From positions 1 through 27,346 of IMG/VR virus record IMGVR_UViG_3300044951_001081: a stretch of DNA of 27,346 nt, one strand, 5' to 3'. A program made the translations under genes and the position numbers. The notes under the pieces are model-generated. The model made no database searches and was not told where the DNA came from. It was given only the letters and a program-made list of their open reading frames with translations. Below are positions 15,016 to 26,862 of this stretch, piece by piece (positions within the stretch are counted from its first letter, which is position 1; every line of letters begins with the position of its first letter). This DNA comes from a virus.

Positions 15016-15504
15016 CTATTGTAGTTTAATTTGCAGTGTTGATAAGTCAAACTTTACAGAGTCGCCTTGATAGATAATTCTTGGGTTGTTTAATTGCGCA
15101 TACATGAGCATGTTTCCAACCCCGTACTGTCCTGAGTCAACAATAGCTATTCCAGAAATCCAGCCCCAGTCAGTCAGAGCTGTTGGAAATAATACTGTGT
15201 TTGTATTTTTAATAAGTCCACTTCCAGCATTGTGGTCGGCAATAAAATACGACCAACTGGAATCTCCATTGGACGATGGATTGCCAAGATCATATCTAGC
15301 ATAACCAGTTGAAGCACCGCCAGTGGTTCCAGACGGAATTTCCGGAAGAGTACCACCTTTTGCATACTGAGATGATCCCGTGTTGGATTCTCTTGGAACG
15401 CCGCTGCACAATGCTATAGCTATATTGGTTGGCTTTGGAAAAGAACCATTTCTAAAAAGATGATGGAGCAATCCAGATTCCAAGTAATCAGAAAAAGCAG
15501 TCAT
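15016..15504 (-). CDS. Phage structural protein, 162 aa
   Basis: This is the first gene after the capsid terminator, behind a candidate late promoter and AGAGGAT. The N-terminus (MTAFSDYLESGLLHHLFRNG) followed by IAIALCSGVPRES and GYARYDLGNP matches a widespread phage virion family: helical start, 'yvaL' strand, 'GYaR' motif. As I recall such genes usually lie among tail-fibre or tail genes. The rest is beta-rich (WISGIAIVDSGQYG, NMLMYAQL). Its position upstream of two large fibres suggests a connector or base protein for them, which is inference. Confidence 0.75.
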   Translation of the reverse strand: MTAFSDYLESGLLHHLFRNGSFPKPTNIAIALCSGVPRESNTGSSQYAKGGTLPEIPSGTTGGASTGYARYDLGNPSSNGDSSWSYFIADHNAGSGLIKNTNTVLFPTALTDWGWISGIAIVDSGQYGVGNMLMYAQLNNPRIIYQGDSVKFDLSTLQIKLQ

Positions 15505-15554: not shown

Positions 15555-15564
15555 ATTATACACA
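15555..15564 (-). promoter_or_regulatory. Candidate late promoter upstream of the fibre operon
   Basis: The minus strand reads TTTTTTTGTGTATAAT, so TGTGTATAAT sits directly on the T-tract of the capsid terminator, 50 bases before the 162-residue gene. The same ten bases precede protease-scaffold and portal. No -35 box is evident. Only position and recurrence support it. Confidence 0.6.
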
Positions 15565-15603
15565 AAAAAAGAGCCATCACCAAACAAATGGAGATGGCTC
15601 TTT
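15564..15603 (-). terminator. Rho-independent terminator after the major capsid gene
   Basis: On the minus strand GAGCCATC (15600-15593) pairs with GATGGCTC (15578-15571). A T/T mismatch and an inner CCA/TGG stem close a six-base TTTGTT loop, and seven Ts follow. Flanking AAA/TTT can extend the stem to 11 bp. It lies 28 bases after the capsid stop, so it probably ends or reduces head-gene transcription before the fibre genes. Confidence 0.88.
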
Positions 15604-15630
15604 CAGTATATAAAAACAGATCAATTACTA

Positions 15631-16638
15631 TTAGTACGAACCAAGGATAATTCGACGATTGTCGAGAACGCCAAATCCAAGTTCAGCAAAACCATAGTAA
15701 CCAACTCTCTGCTGACGATGAAGTGTAGGATCTTCAAACACCTGAAGAGCCTGCTTCATAGGCATGATAAAGCTATCGCTAGCACCCTGATCAAGACCAA
15801 TGACCAGCTCTAGATCGCTAGCTTGAACAGCGCCACCAAGACCATTTGCAAAGAAGTCTTGGTATTCTTGACCTTCGCCAAGTTCATCAAGGTCATGCAG
15901 GTTAACGCCGAAGATACGAGTAATAGGAGCGCCACCTTCAGTCGCTGAGTAAATTTCACGACGAGTAACTTCATCAATCTGATCAAGTCCCCAGTTGCGA
16001 ACATCTTCAAGAGATTCTGGCGATACGTAAAGATCAGTCAATCTACCTCGATTGGCTGAACCCGTATTTCCGCCAGCATTTCTACGCATAACAGTCTGCA
16101 TAAGAGAAACCAATCTCTTTGAGAATAGACCGGCTGTAGCATCACCGTCATAAACCAAGATGTTGCGGTCAACACCAGCAGCCAACAGCGTGTGAAAACC
16201 GTCATCATTCATCTTCTTTACGAAGCCAGCTTCCATCACCTGTGCTGCGCGAGCAGCAACATCCCAGCGAGCTTCACGAGCATAACGCAGCAAATAATCA
16301 ATGCTGGATGTGATCGTGTAGGTAGGAATTGTGACATAATCACTTTCAACCGCACGCTCAGGAATACGACCATGACCCGGATTTGTGTAAGCAACATGCT
16401 CACCTTCAAGACCCGGAGAGATCAAATCGAGAGGATATTCAGTGCTGGCACCCGGCTCAACATTGATTGTCTCGAAAATATTACCAAGAATATTGCCAAC
16501 AAGAACACCCTTTCGCAGAGGAAGTTCAAGAGCTTTAGCAAACTCACGCTGTGATGCCAGAGCAACACTCTGATCATTGTGACCAGTGTTTTTATAAAGA
16601 CTAATAAATTCGTTACTAGGTCTCTCTGTGTATGACAT
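15631..16638 (-). CDS. Major capsid protein, HK97 fold, 335 aa
   Basis: The gene starts at ATG 16638 with AAAGGAG nine bases upstream, the strongest ribosome-binding site in the window and like that of other phage capsid genes. The order protease-scaffold, decoration, capsid is typical of head modules. The protein has a helical N-arm (1-50), a region rich in E and G (NVEPGASTEYPLDLI), a long central helix (DYLLRYAREARWDVAARAAQ) and the C-terminal strand pattern RVGYYGFAELGFGVLDNRRIILGSY. This ending and the size fit HK97-fold major capsid proteins. The N-arm could lose residues to the prohead protease; the site is not evident. Confidence 0.9.
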   Translation of the reverse strand: MSYTERPSNEFISLYKNTGHNDQSVALASQREFAKALELPLRKGVLVGNILGNIFETINVEPGASTEYPLDLISPGLEGEHVAYTNPGHGRIPERAVESDYVTIPTYTITSSIDYLLRYAREARWDVAARAAQVMEAGFVKKMNDDGFHTLLAAGVDRNILVYDGDATAGLFSKRLVSLMQTVMRRNAGGNTGSANRGRLTDLYVSPESLEDVRNWGLDQIDEVTRREIYSATEGGAPITRIFGVNLHDLDELGEGQEYQDFFANGLGGAVQASDLELVIGLDQGASDSFIMPMKQALQVFEDPTLHRQQRVGYYGFAELGFGVLDNRRIILGSY

Positions 16639-16671
16639 ATTATGTATCTCCTTTAAAATTAAAGATTAGTT

Positions 16672-17157
16672 TTAGCCGAAGTTAGGAAGGTTGACGTAAA
16701 CTTTAGCGTAACCGTCAGCGTCCTTGCGGGACATGAAACGGCCAATAGCCAAATTACCGGATGATGCTGCATTGGAAGCTGTCGTAGAAACGTTGCCAGC
16801 AGTGGTTACGTCTGCGTAAGCGACATTTCCCGGAACTGGAGTTCCAGTAACCAAGTTGGTTACAACCCAGCCACGAGTCAATACAGTTACCTTGCCACCC
16901 TTTTGTACTTCATCCTTGTACTGATTTAGATGAGTACGAGTAAGATCTTTATCAACAACGTCGTTCAGCAAAAACCCAACAGGAACGTTGGTTGATGCGG
17001 CCTGCTTGTAAGATACGCTATTGTCTCCCTGATCCATCGCTGCGCCAGAAGCGCTTAGAACGTCCAAGCAAACAACACCACCGCGACTTGCAGTTCCGGC
17101 AGTATAGAAAAAGCTGATATCTGTAGATTCTTCGTATCTATCTGATTTAAGAGCCAT
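16672..17157 (-). CDS. Head decoration / minor capsid protein, 161 aa
   Basis: I place the start at ATG 17157 (MALKSDRYEESTDISFFYTA), with AGGAG nine bases upstream, not at the longer in-frame ATG at 17247 that overlaps the scaffold. The product is small, beta-rich and Gly/Ala/Ser/Thr-rich, with 'ASRGGVVCLDV' and 'VPVGFLLNDVVDKDLT' segments. It lies between scaffold and major capsid gene, where many phages encode a cement or decoration protein. Homologues with the same MALKSDRYE-type start are, as I recall, common in environmental phages. Function is inferred from position and fold type. Confidence 0.7.
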   Translation of the reverse strand: MALKSDRYEESTDISFFYTAGTASRGGVVCLDVLSASGAAMDQGDNSVSYKQAASTNVPVGFLLNDVVDKDLTRTHLNQYKDEVQKGGKVTVLTRGWVVTNLVTGTPVPGNVAYADVTTAGNVSTTASNAASSGNLAIGRFMSRKDADGYAKVYVNLPNFG

Positions 17158-17182
17158 AGTTATATTCTCCTGTTTTTTATAA

Positions 17183-17824
17183 TTACTTGTTAAGTACGTG
17201 ATTTTCAAACCAGTTTGAAACACTCGCTCTGGTAGATTCAAGTTCATTGTGCTCTGGAACGATAAGTGTGGCTTCTGAACTTTCTATTTTTTCGAAAGTC
17301 TCTGGAGTTACTTCGGCTTCTGTGATCTTAGCCTTAGAATCCTTCTTCATAGCTTCTTTATCTTCCACTGCCTTCTTTTCAAACATCATCTTCTTCTTGC
17401 CGTACATAGCAACCACGGCTTCAAAAGAAGAGTCATCAAGAGCGTCAAAAGCAGCAAGAGTTGTTTCTACTTCTTCTTGTTCAAAACCAGCTTCTACCAA
17501 AGAAGCCATTCTCTTCTGCATCTTTTCTTTCTTCTTCATTTCTTCCATGTTCATTTTTGCTTCAGCAAGCTGAGAGCTTGATTGAACCAATGCATCTTCG
17601 AGTTCAGCAACGCGAGCCTGAGTAGACTTGATAACCTCATTGAGCTGATCAATCGTTGCGTGACTCTGTTCAGCAGCAGTCTTGAAAGACTCAAGCTTAG
17701 AAGCAAATTCCTTGTCTTTAGCTTCTTCGATCTTGGCCTTGATGGCTTCGTTTTCAACGTTAGCTTTTGCTAGTTGATCACGAACCTCTCGTAGCTGCGT
17801 TTCAAACAGTGTATCTTCAGCCAT
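17183..17824 (-). CDS. Internal in-frame start: free scaffold protein, 213 aa
   Basis: Within the protease-scaffold gene, ATG 17824-17822 (codon 271, MAEDTLFETQLREVRDQL) is preceded by AGGAG at 17837-17833 with an eight-base spacer. It falls exactly at the junction between protease-like and coiled-coil regions. It would give excess scaffold without protease, the arrangement known for lambda C and Nu3. The preceding linker (FSIGEIK) would then double as translation signal. Expression is inferred. Confidence 0.65.
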   Translation of the reverse strand: MAEDTLFETQLREVRDQLAKANVENEAIKAKIEEAKDKEFASKLESFKTAAEQSHATIDQLNEVIKSTQARVAELEDALVQSSSQLAEAKMNMEEMKKKEKMQKRMASLVEAGFEQEEVETTLAAFDALDDSSFEAVVAMYGKKKMMFEKKAVEDKEAMKKDSKAKITEAEVTPETFEKIESSEATLIVPEHNELESTRASVSNWFENHVLNK

Positions 17825-18634
17825 TTTAATTTCTCCTATTGAAAATTTAGAGTATGCGTTAAAGTTTATAACATTTGCAACCGCATTATTAAATATAACA
17901 CTTCTAGGGTTCGCAGGCTTTGAAACCAACCCCTTGCCAGAAAAAGAAATGTTTGACAAAGCACGACCTAATTTATAACCTTCATATTGACCTGTTCCAC
18001 CGTAAGATTTTAGATGTTTAGTCAAAAAGGCTGAGGCTTCATCTCGTTCCAATATCTTTGCCATACCTTTGTTGTCAATCATCGCATAATCAAATCCAGA
18101 AAATAGACATTCCATAGAAACGTACCATTTGCCTTCTTCGATTTCAGCAATGATTTTTTCCATCCGTTCTTTGTTGGTTTCATCGCTCCAACTGTTGTAT
18201 AAAACAGCTTGAGTAATGATATCAAAATCTTCTGGACGGGAATCATCTTCGTCGCCTACAGCTTTACCATCCTTGGTTAAAACATAAGACCCTGTGATAT
18301 GACCAATTATATCATTTTCATCGTGCATGAAATTGAATTGTTTGTCTTCTGGAGTTTTTCTAGCAGCCCAAGTGGCCTCAGGAGTAAAAACATCATCGTT
18401 TTTATTCCATCCAGTAGAAACAAGAACAGACTCTATGTAATACAGATCTAACTGATTTTTATTCTCAGCAAGGGCTGTTTCCAGAGAAGCTGGTATTTTA
18501 ATATGATTTGATCTTGATGGCAAAGCTCTTTTGTGTAGTTCATCCACGCGAGAACAATAAGCTATAGAAGCCTGAGTTTTAACCAACTCGGCTACTCCAT
18601 CTTGAACTTCATGTTTAAAAATTTTTATTGTCAT
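17183..18634 (-). CDS. Prohead protease fused to scaffold, 483 aa
   Basis: Residues 1-260 look like a prohead core protease (U9/U35-like). The pattern QFNFMHDENDIIGHITGSYV supplies the candidate catalytic His, and GKWYVSMECLF near residue 168 supplies the candidate Ser followed by Glu. Residues 271-483 are a charged, coiled-coil, Ala/Glu/Lys-rich scaffold (LREVRDQLAKANVENEAIKA), ending VSNWFENHVLNK. Such fusions exist in phages where the protease degrades its own scaffold after capsid assembly. A strong internal start at codon 271 could release scaffold alone. A TGTGTATAAT promoter candidate lies 18 bases before the start codon; GAGG serves as ribosome-binding site. It sits between portal and decoration genes. 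Confidence 0.82.
   Translation of the reverse strand: MTIKIFKHEVQDGVAELVKTQASIAYCSRVDELHKRALPSRSNHIKIPASLETALAENKNQLDLYYIESVLVSTGWNKNDDVFTPEATWAARKTPEDKQFNFMHDENDIIGHITGSYVLTKDGKAVGDEDDSRPEDFDIITQAVLYNSWSDETNKERMEKIIAEIEEGKWYVSMECLFSGFDYAMIDNKGMAKILERDEASAFLTKHLKSYGGTGQYEGYKLGRALSNISFSGKGLVSKPANPRSVIFNNAVANVINFNAYSKFSIGEIKMAEDTLFETQLREVRDQLAKANVENEAIKAKIEEAKDKEFASKLESFKTAAEQSHATIDQLNEVIKSTQARVAELEDALVQSSSQLAEAKMNMEEMKKKEKMQKRMASLVEAGFEQEEVETTLAAFDALDDSSFEAVVAMYGKKKMMFEKKAVEDKEAMKKDSKAKITEAEVTPETFEKIESSEATLIVPEHNELESTRASVSNWFENHVLNK
17833..17837 (-). promoter_or_regulatory. Internal ribosome-binding site for scaffold
   Basis: AGGAG in an A-rich context (AGGAGAAATTAAAATG) inside a coding gene. 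It is as good as the sites in front of real genes nearby, which makes chance less likely. Confidence 0.65.
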
Positions 18635-18651
18635 TTTTTTTACCTCATGAC

Positions 18652-18661
18652 ATTATACACA
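18652..18661 (-). promoter_or_regulatory. Candidate late promoter upstream of protease-scaffold
   Basis: The minus strand reads TTTTTTTGTGTATAATGTC in the 58-base gap after portal. The 16 bases TTTTTTTGTGTATAAT equal those before the fibre operon. A start seven bases after the hexamer would give an almost leaderless transcript beginning at the GAGG ribosome-binding site. No -35 box is evident. Confidence 0.55.
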
Positions 18662-18692
18662 AAAAAATAAAAAATACAAAGAAAGCCTATTT

Positions 18693-20708
18693 TTAGCTTA
18701 ATAATAACTCTACGTAATTTGCTATAATTAGTTTTCTATAGTTTTCTATGCTGTTTGCTGAAACTTTAATTTCTTTTAATTCTGATGGAATAGGTTTAAA
18801 TTTTTCAGAAATAGCTTTGTATATAGAACTGTCGTTTAGTTCGCACATTGGAGTAAGATTCAACAGCGTTGCTAACCTTAATTGTTCAAACTCTTGAGAT
18901 TCAGCTTTTGTTAGCTGTCTCATGTTAGCTTTGCCTTTATCGTGTAAATATCCATCTATCAACACAGAAGTATGATCAAAGGCTGACGTTACCCACATAA
19001 ACAACTCAGCAACTCCCGGCGTACTCTTTGGTGTATCCACACGTTTCTTTCTTGGACCATCATCTAGTTTATTTGGAGGTCTTCCGTTGTCTTTTTTAGC
19101 CACTGGACTGCTCTTTAAACCGGTTTCAGGTTTAGACTCTTGTATATCTTTAGTGATTTCACCTTGCTTTTCTATTTTTTCCATGTCGATCTGCTGATTC
19201 GCGTTATGGAAAGGACTAGCTTTTGGAGGCAGCTTTTCATCTTCTCTGGATTTAGCTTCTCTTTGTAGTCTTACTTTTTCTACGTTTGGAACTTCCTTGA
19301 ATCTTTCAAGCACAGTTTCATGCGAAATGATATCTCTGTCAGCAAGTTGTATGAGCAAGTTCTTTTCACTAGATTCGTCAGATAGACTCATTTGATCATA
19401 AACAACATGAGCTGACTTTCTGAAGCCCATAGCTTTTCTTATATCTTCAAGCTCTTTCTCCCAAAACTTAGTTAGCTGATCTCTGCCGTACTGCAATCTT
19501 TCAACCAAAGTTTTAAGAGATATGAAGTTGTTTGTGAAGCCACCGCCCTGTCCAGACATTCCTGTCAATGTTGGAGGAACTCCAAGCCCAGCAAAGATAC
19601 TGTTTAGTACATTTTGATACTTTTCAGCTCCCAAGAACTTGTAAACTTGAGAGTTGCTTTCTGTGAATTTTAGTTCTGGCCCATAAACAAGCTCCATGCA
19701 TCCACCACCTGTGTTGCTGGCGAGTATGTTTCTTAATTTATTTACGCCTTCTTGTGTTGGCAAAACCTTGTGTTCAAAGCTTCCGAGTGTCCACAGCCTG
19801 ATGTTTGAAATAGCACCATCCAATGCTGCCAAGTCAGCTAATTTCATCTTCTCTAACATAACGATGTCATCAAGGATTGCGTAGGCAAGTGGATGCGCCC
19901 ATTGTTGCCAGTCATCTTTTTTATAATAAAAGACTGATAATTTTTCAGGATCTAGGTCTATCTTACGCTCTTTATTTTTTATGCTATTTTTAATATTGCT
20001 TGGTAAAGTTTCAAGAACTTTTATGGGAATTGTGCCATCTTTGAAGTTGTCAAAAAAAGCATTTGAGTTTAACTGATAGTTTTGCTTTCCAAGAAAAAGG
20101 CTAACTACGCCATCCTTCATGTCTATCGTCAACGGATTAAAGAAGTTGTATCTCCAAGGAATCAGATTCTTTTTAACCGATGGAATTTCTACAACTATAT
20201 CTTGAGCCAATGATTTGATATAAGTAACTATATCATCACTGATATTAGCGTGACTTTTATAAATAAAGACATTGCCCGTTCTGTAGAGATTGTTTAAAAA
20301 TCTTTCTGACCTTTCTTTGCCGTCAACCTTTTTGAACCATTGCTGATAGAATTTTTCAACACTCTTGTTTTCATGAACGATGTTTATTCCTTGACAACCA
20401 AAATCGCCCATTAAATCTATAATATTTCTTACAATCCCAACCTTGTCATAAGCTTCCATGCACATCTTTATTATGCTTTTAGAGCGTGTGGGAATTTGCT
20501 CTTCTGGTCTGAAAGCATAATAATCGCTGCGAGTAAATCCGGGCTTTACAGATCTGTTTGGCTCAACGTTTAAAAAATCTCTATGATAAGCTTTGCTCAC
20601 ACCGGCATAAGACTCGGAAGCTTCAGAGAAACTTTGAAAAGCCAAAGCCTTTGAGTTTTGATCGTTATCATTCCAAGTCGTAAGAGACCCTTTGGTTTTT
20701 TCAGACAT
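18693..20708 (-). CDS. Portal protein, 671 aa
   Basis: This gene follows the large terminase and precedes protease-scaffold. The N-terminal region has YYAFRPEEQIP and IIKMCMEAYDKVGIVRNIID (residues 60-100), and NNLYRTGNVFIYKS near 145, typical of portal wing domains. GLGVPPTLTGMSGQGGGFTN near 385 and the following long helix (FISLKTLVERLQYGRDQLTK) match the stem/crown region of portals. A charged Pro-rich linker (about 500-560) leads to a C-terminal helical part. At 671 residues it is longer than many portals, the extra being this tail. It forms the dodecameric DNA gate to which terminase docks. Confidence 0.87.
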   Translation of the reverse strand: MSEKTKGSLTTWNDNDQNSKALAFQSFSEASESYAGVSKAYHRDFLNVEPNRSVKPGFTRSDYYAFRPEEQIPTRSKSIIKMCMEAYDKVGIVRNIIDLMGDFGCQGINIVHENKSVEKFYQQWFKKVDGKERSERFLNNLYRTGNVFIYKSHANISDDIVTYIKSLAQDIVVEIPSVKKNLIPWRYNFFNPLTIDMKDGVVSLFLGKQNYQLNSNAFFDNFKDGTIPIKVLETLPSNIKNSIKNKERKIDLDPEKLSVFYYKKDDWQQWAHPLAYAILDDIVMLEKMKLADLAALDGAISNIRLWTLGSFEHKVLPTQEGVNKLRNILASNTGGGCMELVYGPELKFTESNSQVYKFLGAEKYQNVLNSIFAGLGVPPTLTGMSGQGGGFTNNFISLKTLVERLQYGRDQLTKFWEKELEDIRKAMGFRKSAHVVYDQMSLSDESSEKNLLIQLADRDIISHETVLERFKEVPNVEKVRLQREAKSREDEKLPPKASPFHNANQQIDMEKIEKQGEITKDIQESKPETGLKSSPVAKKDNGRPPNKLDDGPRKKRVDTPKSTPGVAELFMWVTSAFDHTSVLIDGYLHDKGKANMRQLTKAESQEFEQLRLATLLNLTPMCELNDSSIYKAISEKFKPIPSELKEIKVSANSIENYRKLIIANYVELLLS

Positions 20709-20754
20709 TCTATTCCCTTTATTATCGAAATGTAATCAGATTGTATTCTAAATG

Positions 20755-20764
20755 ATTATACACA
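20755..20764 (-). promoter_or_regulatory. Candidate late promoter upstream of portal
   Basis: TGTGTATAAT occurs in the 60-base gap between terminase and portal, preceded by TTATTAAAATA rather than a T-run. It lies 46 bases before the portal start. Together with the two other copies it defines a motif restricted to head/fibre gene gaps; no -35 box is seen. Confidence 0.55.
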
Positions 20765-20768
20765 TATT

Positions 20769-22769
20769 TTAATAAAGGTTATTGTTCATATTGTCTGTGA
20801 ACCAAGCTGGACCATTGTAAAGTTTACCTTTTGGATCTTTTTCTTTTTCAACTGTTGCAAATCCTCCATAGAAATTGTATATTTCTGGACTTGGCATTCG
20901 AGCTATGGTTCTAGCTGACATGTTTGCCATCAGAAGGGCTGAGTATCTATCTTTTCTCAGCTTGCCCTTTTTACCAGTGCCTATAACAGTTTCTGGAGTG
21001 TCCCATTTGTCTCTGCCAGAAGGTGTTTGTGATATTTGAATCATGGCTAATTCATCTTTTAAATCTTCTATTTCCATAACGCATTGTTCAAGTGTATCAA
21101 AAGATCTACCCTTCATTTCATCTTCGATGGCTGAAATGTCTAGGCTCAGTGTGTCGAACATGGGGAATAAAAGAGCTTTATCCTCAAAGTCTTTTCTCAT
21201 ACCATGATTTGATTCAGACACCCAGTCATATCTAGAAAATTGGCACATTTCTAATATGTGTAGACCTCTGTTGTCGTCTGAGTCTTTTGGCTTTTCTTGG
21301 TCGATAGTTTCCCAGATTGGAAGTTCGTTTTCTTGTATTTTATCTTTATCATGCAAGCTTTCCATGACAGCGATACCACCGCCTCCAGCATCCATAGCTA
21401 TTTGAACGCACGGAAAAACTGTCATCAAATCTCTTATTTTTCTAGCACAATAAGCGTAAAAGTCAGATTCAGATGAATATCCACTTTTAATTTTTTCTTT
21501 GTGCTGATCTCTGTTTGTTGTCCAACAGTGAACTACTCTTCTGTGATCTTCATTTAGTTCTAAAATAACAATACTAAAATTATCTACTTCTGAAGCTGGG
21601 TCAACTCCAAAGATGTATTTCTTTTGTATGTCGCCTCTGATTCTTGTTGAAAAACAAATATCAATTCCATTTTTGTCTTTTATAGGAGCTTTGTCCAAGT
21701 ACTGATCGTTGGTGACACAAGCCTCTATCAGGGATCGCTTGAAAAAGCCCTGTGAGTCGCGTGTGAAGCAAGCTCCGAACTCCATCTGGTATATTCCAGC
21801 ATGAACAGTAGCCTTTGATCTGGCGACCTGTGAGGCGTCCATAAAGCCCTCTGGTAAAAGCTCGTATGGTATTCTTATTATCGAATAATCCTTCCAGTTA
21901 AAACCTTCTGGGGGATCTTCGTTGAAGATGTCTCGCAATCTACTTTCTTTGCCTTGACTCTTTATTATTGATTTCCACTTTTTCCAATATTGAGCAAAAT
22001 GGTTAAAATCGTAATAGGCTGTTCCTGAAAGAATTATTTGATTGTCACTCTTTTTAAGGATATTGCTATCTTCTTCAAAATAATCTAAATTATACTCTTT
22101 GGCCTTTTTTCTCGCTGCCATGTTTTTAACATTTTCGATGGGATCTGAACTTACTGCGGCAAAACCGGCAACAACATTTTCAAAAATATCCCTTGGTATA
22201 CTCGCAAATTCATCAGAGATAATATCATTTGCTCGTTGCCCTCTTATCTTCTGACCATCCCCTAAAGGTAGGCATGTCACGCGAGACTGATTTATTCTCA
22301 GCACACATCTATCAACGTCTCTTCTTGGTCCAGACTCAGCATCGCACATGCTTCTTAGAATTGGAGCTTTGTTCCATATTGTTTCCATGTATTCAAACAG
22401 CACTTTTGATTGTCTGAAAGCAGCACCAACAATAACAATCTTTCTTTCTGGAAGTATCAAGGCTCTTAGTATTGAATAAAGAGATAAAATAAAAGACTTG
22501 CCAAAACCTCGGCTAGCGATAAGCATCGGAAATTTACGATTCCACATCTCATGTAAAAATAAAGCTTGAGATGGCAGTATGTTGACGTTCAATATGTGTT
22601 TGCATAAAAACGAAAAATACTCTGGCCTTGTCATCAACCACAACAGCCTGTAATGAGAATCGTTTGCAGATCCTATAAATTTCATTGGGTTGAATATTGA
22701 TTCATCATTGATGTCGTCAAGGTTCAGCCAAGCTTCATTTATAACTTTAATTTTACCATCGTCTTTCAT
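20769..22769 (-). CDS. terL: Terminase large subunit, 666 aa
   Basis: This is the ATP-driven DNA-packaging motor and headful nuclease. Walker A is at residues 84-92 (IASRGFGKS). Walker B is at about 183-187 (IISDE), with the catalytic Glu directly after Asp. The coupling motif SGTAYYD is at 248-254. The RNase H-like nuclease domain begins at about 386 with FGVDPASEVDNFSIVIL (Asp390), and continues with IAMDAGGGG (Asp460). The third acidic residue of the nuclease is probably in the RDKWDTPE region near 605. The start overlaps the ClpP-like gene by four bases (ATGA), with GGGAG upstream. Length is near the upper range for this family. No intein or intron is seen. Confidence 0.95.
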   Translation of the reverse strand: MKDDGKIKVINEAWLNLDDINDESIFNPMKFIGSANDSHYRLLWLMTRPEYFSFLCKHILNVNILPSQALFLHEMWNRKFPMLIASRGFGKSFILSLYSILRALILPERKIVIVGAAFRQSKVLFEYMETIWNKAPILRSMCDAESGPRRDVDRCVLRINQSRVTCLPLGDGQKIRGQRANDIISDEFASIPRDIFENVVAGFAAVSSDPIENVKNMAARKKAKEYNLDYFEEDSNILKKSDNQIILSGTAYYDFNHFAQYWKKWKSIIKSQGKESRLRDIFNEDPPEGFNWKDYSIIRIPYELLPEGFMDASQVARSKATVHAGIYQMEFGACFTRDSQGFFKRSLIEACVTNDQYLDKAPIKDKNGIDICFSTRIRGDIQKKYIFGVDPASEVDNFSIVILELNEDHRRVVHCWTTNRDQHKEKIKSGYSSESDFYAYCARKIRDLMTVFPCVQIAMDAGGGGIAVMESLHDKDKIQENELPIWETIDQEKPKDSDDNRGLHILEMCQFSRYDWVSESNHGMRKDFEDKALLFPMFDTLSLDISAIEDEMKGRSFDTLEQCVMEIEDLKDELAMIQISQTPSGRDKWDTPETVIGTGKKGKLRKDRYSALLMANMSARTIARMPSPEIYNFYGGFATVEKEKDPKGKLYNGPAWFTDNMNNNLY

Positions 22770-23419
22770 TTCAAACTCCCGATACTCTTCATTTTTCTTG
22801 TGTCAAGCACATGGTCTGCAAAACCGTAATAAACTGATTCATTTGCTTCTAAGTACCAATCTCCATCTTTTAATTTTCTCTTTAAGAAATTTCTTACCTT
22901 GTCTGTATCTAGATTGGTGTAACTTTCTTTGAAGTATTTACCATAAATACATTTATTGGCGTAGATATCTATCATGATCTCGGCATTGATCTTGTCTAAC
23001 TTTGCCAAGTTGTGTGCGCTTAGATGATCGCTTGCACAAGCAAAGCTTCCATAATGAAGCATGAAGTGAGCATTTGGGGTCAAAACTCTCTTGTCTGCTG
23101 CTTGTAGGATTATGCCGCTCATAGACTCGGCTTGACCATAAGCCACGATGGTGACATAAGACTTAGTCAAAGCTATCGCGTCGTAGATAACCATGCCATC
23201 AGACCAATTGCCTCCGATACTGTGCATGTGAACAATTATCGGCTCTTCAGAGATGGTGTCTAAAAGCCTGATGTTCTTATAAAAGTTAACAGCCATTCTG
23301 TACTCAACACCGGGATCTTCATCAGTATTAAATACGTGTCCGTGAAGATATATTTCTCTGTTCTTTATGTCTAAACCGTATTGATGTATGTCCGAAATAG
23401 TATCTACTAGAATATCCAT
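22766..23419 (-). CDS. clpP: ClpP-like serine protease, 217 aa
   Basis: The catalytic triad is intact by alignment with E. coli ClpP. Ser99 lies in GQAESMSG, His122 in NAHFMLHYG, and Asp187 in GDWYLEANESVYYGFAD. The oxyanion-type HSIGG (66-70) is also present. Length matches ClpP family members. It lies directly before terminase and after two nucleases. A separate prohead protease domain is encoded later, so this may not be the capsid-maturation enzyme. Alternatives are host protein turnover with a host Clp ATPase, or cleavage of a specific structural protein. No ATPase partner is encoded here. Confidence 0.9.
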   Translation of the reverse strand: MDILVDTISDIHQYGLDIKNREIYLHGHVFNTDEDPGVEYRMAVNFYKNIRLLDTISEEPIIVHMHSIGGNWSDGMVIYDAIALTKSYVTIVAYGQAESMSGIILQAADKRVLTPNAHFMLHYGSFACASDHLSAHNLAKLDKINAEIMIDIYANKCIYGKYFKESYTNLDTDKVRNFLKRKLKDGDWYLEANESVYYGFADHVLDTRKMKSIGSLK

Positions 23420-24186: not shown

Positions 24187-24433
24187 CTTTGCACACAACC
24201 TTTATTATTCTGATGTCGTTTTCTATGTCTTTTATAAAAATCGCAATCTTGTCAGAAGGCTTTTGTCTCAGCAGAGTTTCAGAAAATTTACAGTAAGCCA
24301 AGTAACAAGCTTCGTCTGGATCTGGAGCTTCAACAAAGATCTCTGGATATTCATGATTAAACTCATGCAATCTGAATTGTAAGAGTCTTTGTAAGACAGA
24401 TGCAAGATTAAAAGTTATTACATAGATTTTCAT
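24170..24433 (-). CDS. Hypothetical protein, 87 aa
   Basis: This gene starts at ATG 24433, overlapping the gmd stop by four bases, and overlaps the HNH gene at its end. The product (MKIYVITFNLASVLQRLLQF...) has an alpha-beta pattern with EAPDPDEACYLAYCKFSETL in the middle and a Lys-rich C-terminus. I recognise no domain. Overlaps on both sides support that it is translated. A small regulatory or nuclease-associated role is possible from position only. Confidence 0.6.
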   Translation of the reverse strand: MKIYVITFNLASVLQRLLQFRLHEFNHEYPEIFVEAPDPDEACYLAYCKFSETLLRQKPSDKIAIFIKDIENDIRIIKVVCKDEKKL

Positions 24434-25530
24434 GGCAATGTATCATGGTCTACCATTAGTTTGACTAAGTCAGCGAATGTATGACTTGGTTTCCAGCCAA
24501 GGACATTGAGAGCCTTGCTGGATTCTCCGCACAAATAATCAACTTCTGCTGGTCTATAAAATTCTGGATCTTGAACAACCAATCCAGACCAATCCACTAC
24601 GCCAACATGCTGAAATGCTACGTCTAGGAACTCACGAATAGTATGAGTCTCGCCGCTGCAGATAACGTAATCATCAGGATAATCCTGCTGAAGCATCAGC
24701 CACATCGCTTCCACGTAATCTCCTGCATACCCCCAATCTCTGAATGCTTCTAAGTTGCCCAGACGTAGTTTTGGAAACTTTTCAACGATTGAGCCATCTC
24801 CATTGAATGTACGTGGAGATATTTTAAGAATATAGTTTGGATCGGAATCATAATCATTCATCAGACTATCTACATGGTTTTTCCATTTTGCAAATTCTCC
24901 AATCCACTTTGTTATTTTTCTGGTGACGAAATCTTCACCTCGTCTTGGACCCTCGTGATTGAAAAGGATTCCAGCGCTGGCATGCATAGAATAAGCTTCA
25001 CGAAAAAGTCTAACCATATGATGAGCGGCGCATTTTGCTATCGCGTATGGGCTTTGCGGCATGAATTTAGTTTCTTCGTCTTGATATTTTACTTTTAATC
25101 CAGACGTTGTGTCAGTATACTCGTCATGATTTTTACCAAACATCTCACTTGAGCTAGCCTGATAAAACCTAGCTTGAGTCATGTCTAAATCAACCAATGT
25201 TTGTAAAATATTAAGGCAACCCTTGCCTGTAACATCCCAAGTCAAGGCTGGTTGCTTGAACGAGACTGCTACATGGCTTTGTGCCGCTAAATTATAGACT
25301 TCATCTACATCAGCGTGTTTTTTAAAGATATTGCTGACAGAGTGTACATCTGTGATGTCGCCGTGCATCAGCTCGAATCTTTCGTGGCAAATCACATGTT
25401 TGATTCTTTTTGTGTTGTCGGTACTTGAGCGTCGTGCAACACCAACAACGTGGTAACCTTTTGACAGCAGTAGGTCTGTCAAGTGACTACCATCTTGTCC
25501 TGTTATTCCAAATACAATAGCTTTTTTCAT
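24430..25530 (-). CDS. gmd: GDP-mannose 4,6-dehydratase, 366 aa
   Basis: This enzyme converts GDP-D-mannose to GDP-4-keto-6-deoxy-D-mannose, precursor of GDP-fucose, GDP-perosamine and related sugars. The NADP-binding GxxGxxG is at residues 8-14 (GITGQDG). The active-site SSSE is at 126-129. YxxxK is at 162-166 (SPYAIAK). The family segments LFNHEGPRRGEDFVTRKI and RDWGYAGDYVEAMWLMLQQ are intact, so it should be active. About 30 extra residues (near 215-250) lie before KLRLGNLEAFRDWG compared with E. coli Gmd as I recall it. AAAGGA precedes the start. No partner enzyme of the sugar pathway is in the window. Its place in a packaging operon is unusual. Confidence 0.95.
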   Translation of the reverse strand: MKKAIVFGITGQDGSHLTDLLLSKGYHVVGVARRSSTDNTKRIKHVICHERFELMHGDITDVHSVSNIFKKHADVDEVYNLAAQSHVAVSFKQPALTWDVTGKGCLNILQTLVDLDMTQARFYQASSSEMFGKNHDEYTDTTSGLKVKYQDEETKFMPQSPYAIAKCAAHHMVRLFREAYSMHASAGILFNHEGPRRGEDFVTRKITKWIGEFAKWKNHVDSLMNDYDSDPNYILKISPRTFNGDGSIVEKFPKLRLGNLEAFRDWGYAGDYVEAMWLMLQQDYPDDYVICSGETHTIREFLDVAFQHVGVVDWSGLVVQDPEFYRPAEVDYLCGESSKALNVLGWKPSHTFADLVKLMVDHDTLP

Positions 25531-25553: not shown

Positions 25554-26366
25554 TTAATCTTTCACGGTTTCTGGTGTCAAGAAAGGTTGATCTACTGTTC
25601 CGTCATTGTACTTGTGGTATTGTGCAAGCCTGTCTCGCTCTTTGTACATTGAGAGTCTCATCTTTTCCATTTCGAGGCCGTAAGACCTTGCTACTTCTTG
25701 ATTGGTTATCAAATATGTCATCCAACCTGTGAAACTAGACTTGCTGTCCTGAAAGCGCTGTACGCGCTGCTCGCGCGTTGCCTTCATATCCTTTAGCATT
25801 GAACTCTTTTTTGTTTGAAGCTCTCGGTAGTCCTTGTTGAGCGATTCCTGAGAGGCTTTGAGCGATGCGACCTGACGTTCCATGTTGAACAGCCCGTCTC
25901 TATCGATTTGATCTGGGTCTCGTTGACGCTCAGCAAATATCAGGGTTTCTAAAACAGATATTTGTTCTAGGTTTTCTTTGTTGCCCTTCAAAGAGCGGTT
26001 CATCAATAATTCTAATTTTATAAGGTCAACAACCTGTAGTTCTTCTGTTGGAATAACATCATCTTGAAATTGAGATATTATTCTTGACCAATGATATTGA
26101 AATAGCTTCAATTCATCTTCGGTGAATTGTTGTTTTAACTCAACAAAGTATGGTCTAAATGTAAGGTCATATTTTGCTTGGTCTTCGGTTGAGATAGTGT
26201 CGAACCAACTGGGTTTTTCTATTTCGTTTTTTGCAACCTTGCGTTTTATGAAGTCTAGAACGCTATCTGGGTTTCTGTCGAGAGACAGAGCTAATTTTTG
26301 ATAACCAAAGTCAACGTTTTCTTTTATGAACGTTTCTTCTGGTTTACTGATCCGACCCGTCTTCAT
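25554..26366 (-). CDS. HTH/coiled-coil protein, possible terminase small subunit, 270 aa
   Basis: I chose ATG 26366 (MKTGRISKPEETFIKENVDF), with AGGAG ten bases upstream, over the longer in-frame ATG at 26444 that overlaps the sigma gene by 100 bases. Residues 5-45 look like a homeodomain-type HTH (YQKLALSLDRNPDSVLDFIK). Residues about 150-230 are a charged coiled coil (ASLKASQESLNKDYRELQTK). HTH plus coiled-coil oligomerisation is the plan of many small terminase subunits, and TerL is four kilobases downstream. However five genes separate them, so this remains a proposal. It may instead be a transcription or replication factor. Confidence 0.6.
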   Translation of the reverse strand: MKTGRISKPEETFIKENVDFGYQKLALSLDRNPDSVLDFIKRKVAKNEIEKPSWFDTISTEDQAKYDLTFRPYFVELKQQFTEDELKLFQYHWSRIISQFQDDVIPTEELQVVDLIKLELLMNRSLKGNKENLEQISVLETLIFAERQRDPDQIDRDGLFNMERQVASLKASQESLNKDYRELQTKKSSMLKDMKATREQRVQRFQDSKSSFTGWMTYLITNQEVARSYGLEMEKMRLSMYKERDRLAQYHKYNDGTVDQPFLTPETVKD

Positions 26367-26862
26367 GATACCCGTGCTCCTGTAGTATATTTTTAACAAT
26401 ATCAACGACTTCTTCGCGTCGTTGTTTTGATATATAAATATCATTGGCTATTTTAAGATAATCCATGCGAACACTTGCTGGCATGTGCCGATCAACAGCG
26501 CCGATCATGTCCTTTAAGTCAAGACCGTCGTATGAATCACCATCAGCATGATCCACAAGCTTGTCTTCATGATCCAACTGGGCTGGCTGAGCTAGTCTTT
26601 TTCGTTGTTCATTTGAATTTCCTATAAAGTAATTGTCACGCATAAAGGTTTTTAGTCTGTTTGACAGGTTTACACTCAGAAAATTCTCAAGGGGTCTGCC
26701 TTCTTCGTAACGATTGAGGGCTTCGATACAAATAATAAAAGACTCTTGAATGATATCATCTTTTGTGTAACCGTAAAAAACGTATTTGGGGGCTATGCGT
26801 TCGCAAACAATGTTTATTTGTTCTACGACCTCTTCTTCCGTCATTCCATTTGGCAATCTCAT
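26344..26862 (-). CDS. Sigma factor, gp55-like late type, 172 aa
   Basis: Residues 28-82 match sigma-70 region 2: YTKDDIIQESFIICIEALNR followed by YEEGRPLENFLSVNLSNRL and a basic-aromatic end (FMRDNYF) typical of -10 recognition. Residues about 128-165 (HMPASVRMDYLKIANDIYIS, KQRREEVVDIVKNILQEHG) may be a reduced region 4. Its size is near T4 gp55 (about 185 residues), which works with late promoters lacking a -35 box. It overlaps the previous gene by four bases, with AAGGA upstream. The TGTGTATAAT motif before the head genes is its likely target, by inference. Acidic residues 94-116 form a linker. Confidence 0.82.
   Translation of the reverse strand: MRLPNGMTEEEVVEQINIVCERIAPKYVFYGYTKDDIIQESFIICIEALNRYEEGRPLENFLSVNLSNRLKTFMRDNYFIGNSNEQRKRLAQPAQLDHEDKLVDHADGDSYDGLDLKDMIGAVDRHMPASVRMDYLKIANDIYISKQRREEVVDIVKNILQEHGYHEDGSDQ

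Follow-up and report, generated by a model that had tools for sequence, protein, structure and literature searches.

The window (the whole 27,346-nt stretch of viral DNA analyzed in this study, an IMG/VR record) carries three exact copies of the ten-base motif TGTGTATAAT, each on the coding strand and each in a gap between genes. The relevant features are as follows.

15016 to 15504, minus strand: gene of a head protein family (phrog_240, E 5.8e-14), first after the candidate promoter at 15564
15555 to 15564, minus strand: putative late promoter motif of the 15016-15504 head gene and the spike/fiber operon, predicted start 15549
15564 to 15603, minus strand: intrinsic terminator of the capsid operon, with a conserved stem and a U-tract running into the promoter
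15631 to 16638, minus strand: probable major capsid protein gene, the last one in the scaffold-capsid operon, its product 87-96% identical among members of the clade
17183 to 18634, minus strand: putative scaffold gene (by position, without a confident family match), first after the candidate promoter at 18661
18652 to 18661, minus strand: putative late promoter motif of the putative scaffold gene, predicted start 18646
18693 to 20708, minus strand: portal gene (weak phrog_64 match), first after the candidate promoter at 20764
20713 to 20745, minus strand: tandem ACAnTCCAATT-like element in the portal leader, recognized in an alignment of 30 portal leaders and degenerate in the window
20755 to 20764, minus strand: putative late promoter motif of the portal gene, an exact match, predicted start 20749, leader about 41 nt
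25554 to 26366, minus strand: partner gene, encoding a helical N-terminal domain and a coiled coil; it follows the sigma gene downstream in all sigma-bearing loci
26344 to 26862, minus strand: small sigma factor gene, the proposed reader of the motif, with region 2 only in the confidently modeled part

An earlier note on this DNA had located the three copies at 15564-15555, 18661-18652 and 20764-20755, had seen no further exact copy, and had pointed out that two of the three share TTTTTTTGTGTATAAT; our scan of the window agrees on all of these points. Its placement of the 20764 site in the gap before the portal gene also stands, whereas the gene labels at the other two sites had to be corrected. 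The 17183-18634 gene, called a protease-scaffold, has no protease match (the protease-like gene of the window is at 22766-23419), but it may still encode the scaffold. The site said to precede the fiber operon is followed by a member of the phrog_240 'head protein' family, which starts the spike/fiber operon. The 15631-16638 product is probably the major capsid protein, judging from its position and conservation. The degenerate form TGTGTATTCT at 9973-9964, suggested as a further site, found no support, having neither the T-tract nor the downstream T-R described below.

Three exact copies are far more than expected, as Markov simulation gave 0.065-0.075 copies per window (maximum 1 in 200) and a non-simple 10-mer was seen three times in only 1 of 1000 gap-sequence simulations. 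With up to two mismatches, however, the window holds 32 copies compared to 33.5 by chance, i.e., no excess. Therefore only the near-exact motif is informative, and degenerate copies cannot be defined from the window alone. A sigma-70 scan of the ordinary type misses all three sites.

The portal protein was used to assemble a set of relatives from IMG/VR, of which 80 were kept; the window and six contigs of related viruses, 69-173 kb long, were examined over their full length. Among these loci, which are non-independent samples with ORF-based gene calls, the motif with no more than two mismatches lies upstream of 76 of the 77 portal homologues examined (exact in 49), about 30-70 nt before the portal start, while the remaining leader diverges. 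Fifteen longer related records contain 60 exact copies versus 2 for the reversed pattern. In the window and the six contigs, 29 of 39 exact copies are in gaps, each of these with a same-strand gene no more than 100 nt downstream, and TGTGTATAAT ranks first among the 10-mers that precede genes in the six contigs. It keeps this rank when the window and its nearest relative are excluded, with 24 of 32 copies in gaps even though gaps make up just 4.2% of the sequence (binomial p ~6e-27). Hence the motif is not equally common within genes; equal frequency there is what the earlier note had named as an outcome that would count against it. A blind IMG/VR scan with TTTTTGTGTATAATNNNNTR gave, among the matches listed, 30 of 116 readable loci encoding core proteins of the clade, compared to 0 of 120 among the matches listed for the reversed pattern.

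No match was obtained when the portal, capsid and sigma proteins were compared with INPHARED isolate phages, nor did searching contigs of bacterial and archaeal genomes with the portal protein return a relative that could point to the host. A literature search for the literal motif string returned no phage late promoters among the matches listed, and psbA-type genes were looked for and not found. One phage contig carries a tmRNA gene (L107:15084-15400, predicted tag GVENYAMAA) beside tRNA genes, and roughly two dozen tRNA genes are present on a related contig (L124, L125). Tandem 11-nt ACAnTCCAATT repeats are conserved across the clade in portal leaders (window, L004-L083); when the window and the six long contigs were examined, the strict form was seen in portal leaders only.

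Six gene families lie downstream of the motif, each with the motif in 5-7 contigs. For the portal gene, the putative scaffold gene and the 15016-15504 head gene, the site is conserved in 7/7 contigs each. The scaffold site is exact in all seven and located 15-17 nt before the gene, its predicted leader in the window being about 12 nt and beginning at the ribosome-binding GAGG of the 17183-18634 gene; the head-gene site is 47-58 nt before its gene. The gene following a giant reading frame has the motif in 6/6 contigs, and two further families have it in 5/6 and 5/5; none of these three families matched Pfam or PHROGs. In one contig (G004), single one-mismatch sites are located ahead of two other genes, one trypsin-like protease and one glycosyltransferase-like.

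The copy belonging to the gene after the giant reading frame is embedded within the 3' end of that ~12.5-kb gene in 6/6 contigs, where it is read as GTG TAT AAT (Val-Tyr-Asn). GTG accounts for 7-18% of the Val codons in the giant genes, and none of the nine other VYN triplets in them is spelled GTG TAT AAT. That this spelling is constant although GTG is rare points to selection acting on the DNA, not on the protein. The giant gene itself (G001:39093-51569; L098, L099) and its orthologues encode proteins of about 4,150 residues that match FG-GAP repeats.

Comparison of the copies revealed an extended motif, TTTTTGTGTATAAT-N4-T-R. T-R occupies the fifth and sixth bases after the motif in 28 of 37 gap copies (any first base), compared to 103 of 817 control TATAATs, and it is present at the corresponding position of the portal site. 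This dinucleotide likely marks the initiation site, with transcription starting at the purine (the sixth base); the rule yields the window starts 15549, 18646 and 20749. A T-tract before the motif is common to gap copies. At the 15564 site this T-run is the U-tract of the preceding terminator, so that the end of the capsid operon is fused with the next promoter. The terminator stem is kept in 7 contigs, with 3 pairs changed on both sides and 98% of cells paired, versus 44-68% when the alignment is slid. One-mismatch gap copies are changed at positions 1, 3, 8 and 9, and never at positions 2, 4, 5, 6, 7 or 10. The note's statement that no -35 box accompanies the motif holds in the sense that late-class copies have no consistent -35 element, one being present in 8 of 92 copies with at most one mismatch versus ~3 expected.

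A second promoter class, TTGACA-N16/17-TATAAT, which is the host housekeeping type, precedes clusters of mostly small genes and does not carry TGTG. In gaps, 40 of 42 sites of this early type are on the strand opposite the portal gene and 2 are on the same strand, whereas all 25 pure late-type (TGTG) sites are on the portal strand and 0 are opposite; four sites fit both classes, 3 of them on the portal strand and 1 opposite. The strand layout of both classes would correspond to the usual early/late arrangement, with timing judged from gene content. The early promoters of the G002, G003 and G004 clusters often have CCGATA in the -35/-10 spacer.

The small sigma that the note had placed at 26344-26862 is real. 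It matches Sigma70_r2 (PF04542) with an E value of 1.3e-4, slightly under the cut-off, and the same family is over the cut-off in 5 of 8 contigs; each of the eight contigs tested has exactly one Sigma70_r2 match. As a result, no sigma-less contig is at hand in which loss of the sigma could be linked to loss of the motif. The AlphaFold model is of high confidence for residues 1-80 only, the C-terminal half being of low confidence. The best 50 PDB matches listed are all sigma factors, aligned over residues ~3-79, i.e., domain 2 (Z 8.2-9.8, 65-85 residues aligned), including the TATAAT-bound structure 3ugp. By predicted fold and sequence, the protein thus appears to be a sigma-70 family region 2, the fold by which sigmas bind core polymerase and the -10 element. 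Where a locus reaches far enough upstream, the sigma operon is in most cases preceded, at ~760-960 nt, by the motif or by a form with one mismatch, and this copy carries a partial -35. For the phage of the window it would be just beyond the window end and is seen in L084 and L085, which encode an identical sigma; L031, L083 and L050 have no clear copy there.

The gene downstream encodes a partner of ~270 residues in a frame that in most loci overlaps that of the sigma, modeled as N-terminal helices followed by long coiled coils. Sequence and structure searches with it gave weak or generic coiled-coil matches only. The partner could be a second sigma subunit, or the small terminase, as it is located upstream of the terminase. 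In L053:1720-3033 the sigma-2 protein and the coiled-coil partner form one reading frame, a natural fusion. It is conceivable, albeit rather unlikely, that the two proteins constitute a two-subunit late sigma working without a sliding clamp, of which L053 would be a naturally fused form; a review of T4 treats a fused late sigma as hypothetical, no natural example being known (PMC2988020). Between the partner gene and the packaging genes, the window (24430-25530) and all six relatives carry a GDP-mannose 4,6-dehydratase gene.

Most likely, TGTGTATAAT is an 'on' switch for late genes in this uncultured phage group, and we consider it quite probable that the three sites in the window are late promoters read by the host core polymerase together with the phage sigma at 26344-26862. 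No multisubunit RNA polymerase beta' subunit and no T7-type polymerase (PF00940) were found in the relatives while the positive controls (T7 for the latter) matched, making the host core polymerase the likely enzyme. These observations suggest a scheme for this clade of uncultured tailed phages in which: the host housekeeping sigma would act first, transcribing early genes from the opposite-strand TTGACA-N16/17-TATAAT promoters; at the sigma operon, whose own copy of the late motif comes with a partial -35, the host sigma could initiate expression and the phage sigma could later maintain it through that copy; the region-2 protein would direct the host core RNA polymerase to the -10-only element TTTTTGTGTATAAT, where transcripts would begin at the purine that follows a T and is the sixth base past the motif; and the portal, scaffold/capsid, head/spike and further late operons would then be switched on. 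That this sigma reads the motif, as well as the timing and the feedback, is what we infer. The earlier proposal of a phage-specific late regulon is strongly supported, as orthologous virion genes throughout the clade have kept the motif, which is concentrated in gaps and co-oriented with genes, has a start pattern of its own, shows no regular -35, and stands apart from the TTGACA/TATAAT class.

The motif might instead be an extended -10 promoter of the host housekeeping sigma, rendered late by a phage activator or by the state of the template, with the phage sigma acting elsewhere. This would be consistent with the perfect TATAAT in the motif, the same -10 as in the early class, and with the partial -35 in a minority of copies; given that TATAAT, the host sigma could indeed contribute. 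However, the TG of every exact copy is one base further upstream than in the canonical extended -10 (TGnTATAAT, TG at -15/-14), and the canonical form occurs only 8 times in upstream gaps. Moreover, one-mismatch gap copies never depart from G at positions 2 and 4 of the motif or from its last T, the TGTG and a consistent -35 are divided between the late and early classes, respectively, no common upstream activator site is apparent except the T-tract, and no other recurrent promoter class was seen for the phage sigma to serve. We therefore regard the housekeeping explanation as improbable.

Two other explanations were considered. Read as its reverse complement, the motif includes TTATACACA, a fit to the DnaA box consensus (TTATNCACA on the other strand), and the copies could thus be DnaA boxes with a role in replication or regulation. 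Yet gaps contain almost no copies of TGTGNATAA in which N is a base other than T (1 vs 29), the required tenth base T falls outside the DnaA box, the copies share the orientation of genes that lie 15-70 nt away, and their variants, such as TATAGT, are typical of a -10; we rejected the DnaA-box reading, the chance of which seems very slight. Recurrence by chance, or through similarity between copied gaps, finds some backing in the two-mismatch counts, which equal chance. It can be practically dismissed in view of the simulation and binomial statistics above, the differing flanks of the three window sites, the persistence of the motif in relatives whose leaders diverge, and its retention by diverged relatives in front of orthologous genes, which was looked for and found.

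With late promoters for the phage sigma as the preferred reading, a probable late regulon, with its probable start sites and sigma, has been obtained for an uncultured phage clade from sequence alone, and the promoter class is of a kind missed by an ordinary sigma-70 scan. The embedded copy offers a clean example of a promoter selected within protein-coding sequence, and the system possibly provides a clamp-independent comparison for T4 late transcription.

The T4 late element is the 8-bp TATAAATA, of which 3 of 84 copies are upstream in gaps, compared to 29 of 39 for TGTGTATAAT, so the motif here is a different one. Like the T4 late system (gp55, gp33 and the activating clamp gp45), the present one has a very small domain-2 sigma, targets virion genes, and uses a -10-only element before them without a -35. 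In T4, too, late promoters lack a -35, gp55 is a small sigma whose similarity is confined to domain 2, and gp55 and gp33 have been described as a split sigma (PMC2988020). The earlier description of the sigma as gp55-like is thus apt, judging from the sequence, for the mode of action (a region-2-only sigma at a -10-only promoter) and not for family membership, as phrog_234, the gp55 family, has no match in the six relatives and the T4 clamp partners were not found. None of the six reached 1e-3 against phrog_234 (T4 control 2.5e-70), the window sigma gave an E value of 0.19 (best of 25 members 5.5e-4), and the profile comparison with gp55 was weak (hhalign probability 7.6%). No gp55 chain is among the best 50 PDB matches listed, which is not evidence against kinship. 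By inspection only, the sigma C-termini, where T4 gp55 has its hydrophobic/acidic clamp-binding epitope, end in the form ILEEHGYHEEG, unlike SLDFLYEAND of T4. Unlike in T4, neither a T4-type clamp (gp45, PF02916, over the cut-off only in T4) nor a bacterial clamp was found in these possibly incomplete contigs; a sub-threshold match to the N-terminal domain of the T4-type clamp lies inside a 2262-residue frame (G006:45638-45856). Also unlike in T4, the sigma gene adjoins that of its putative partner and is fused to it in one contig.

Phages phiEco32 and 7-11 have a sigma distantly related to the sigma-A family and a short promoter, TAATGTATA, few copies of which precede structural genes, apart from host-type promoters (PMC4331800). 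The present phages share this arrangement but differ in motif and sigma, an anti-sigma being a feature of phiEco32 and 7-11. Known split sigmas include SigO/RsoA of B. subtilis and gp33/gp34 of SPO1. As in these, a region-2 subunit gene here adjoins the gene of another protein, one that is helical in its N-terminal domain, although the partner, unlike theirs, has no shown similarity to sigma region 4. The principle at work is already known, and the present system is a fresh version of it.
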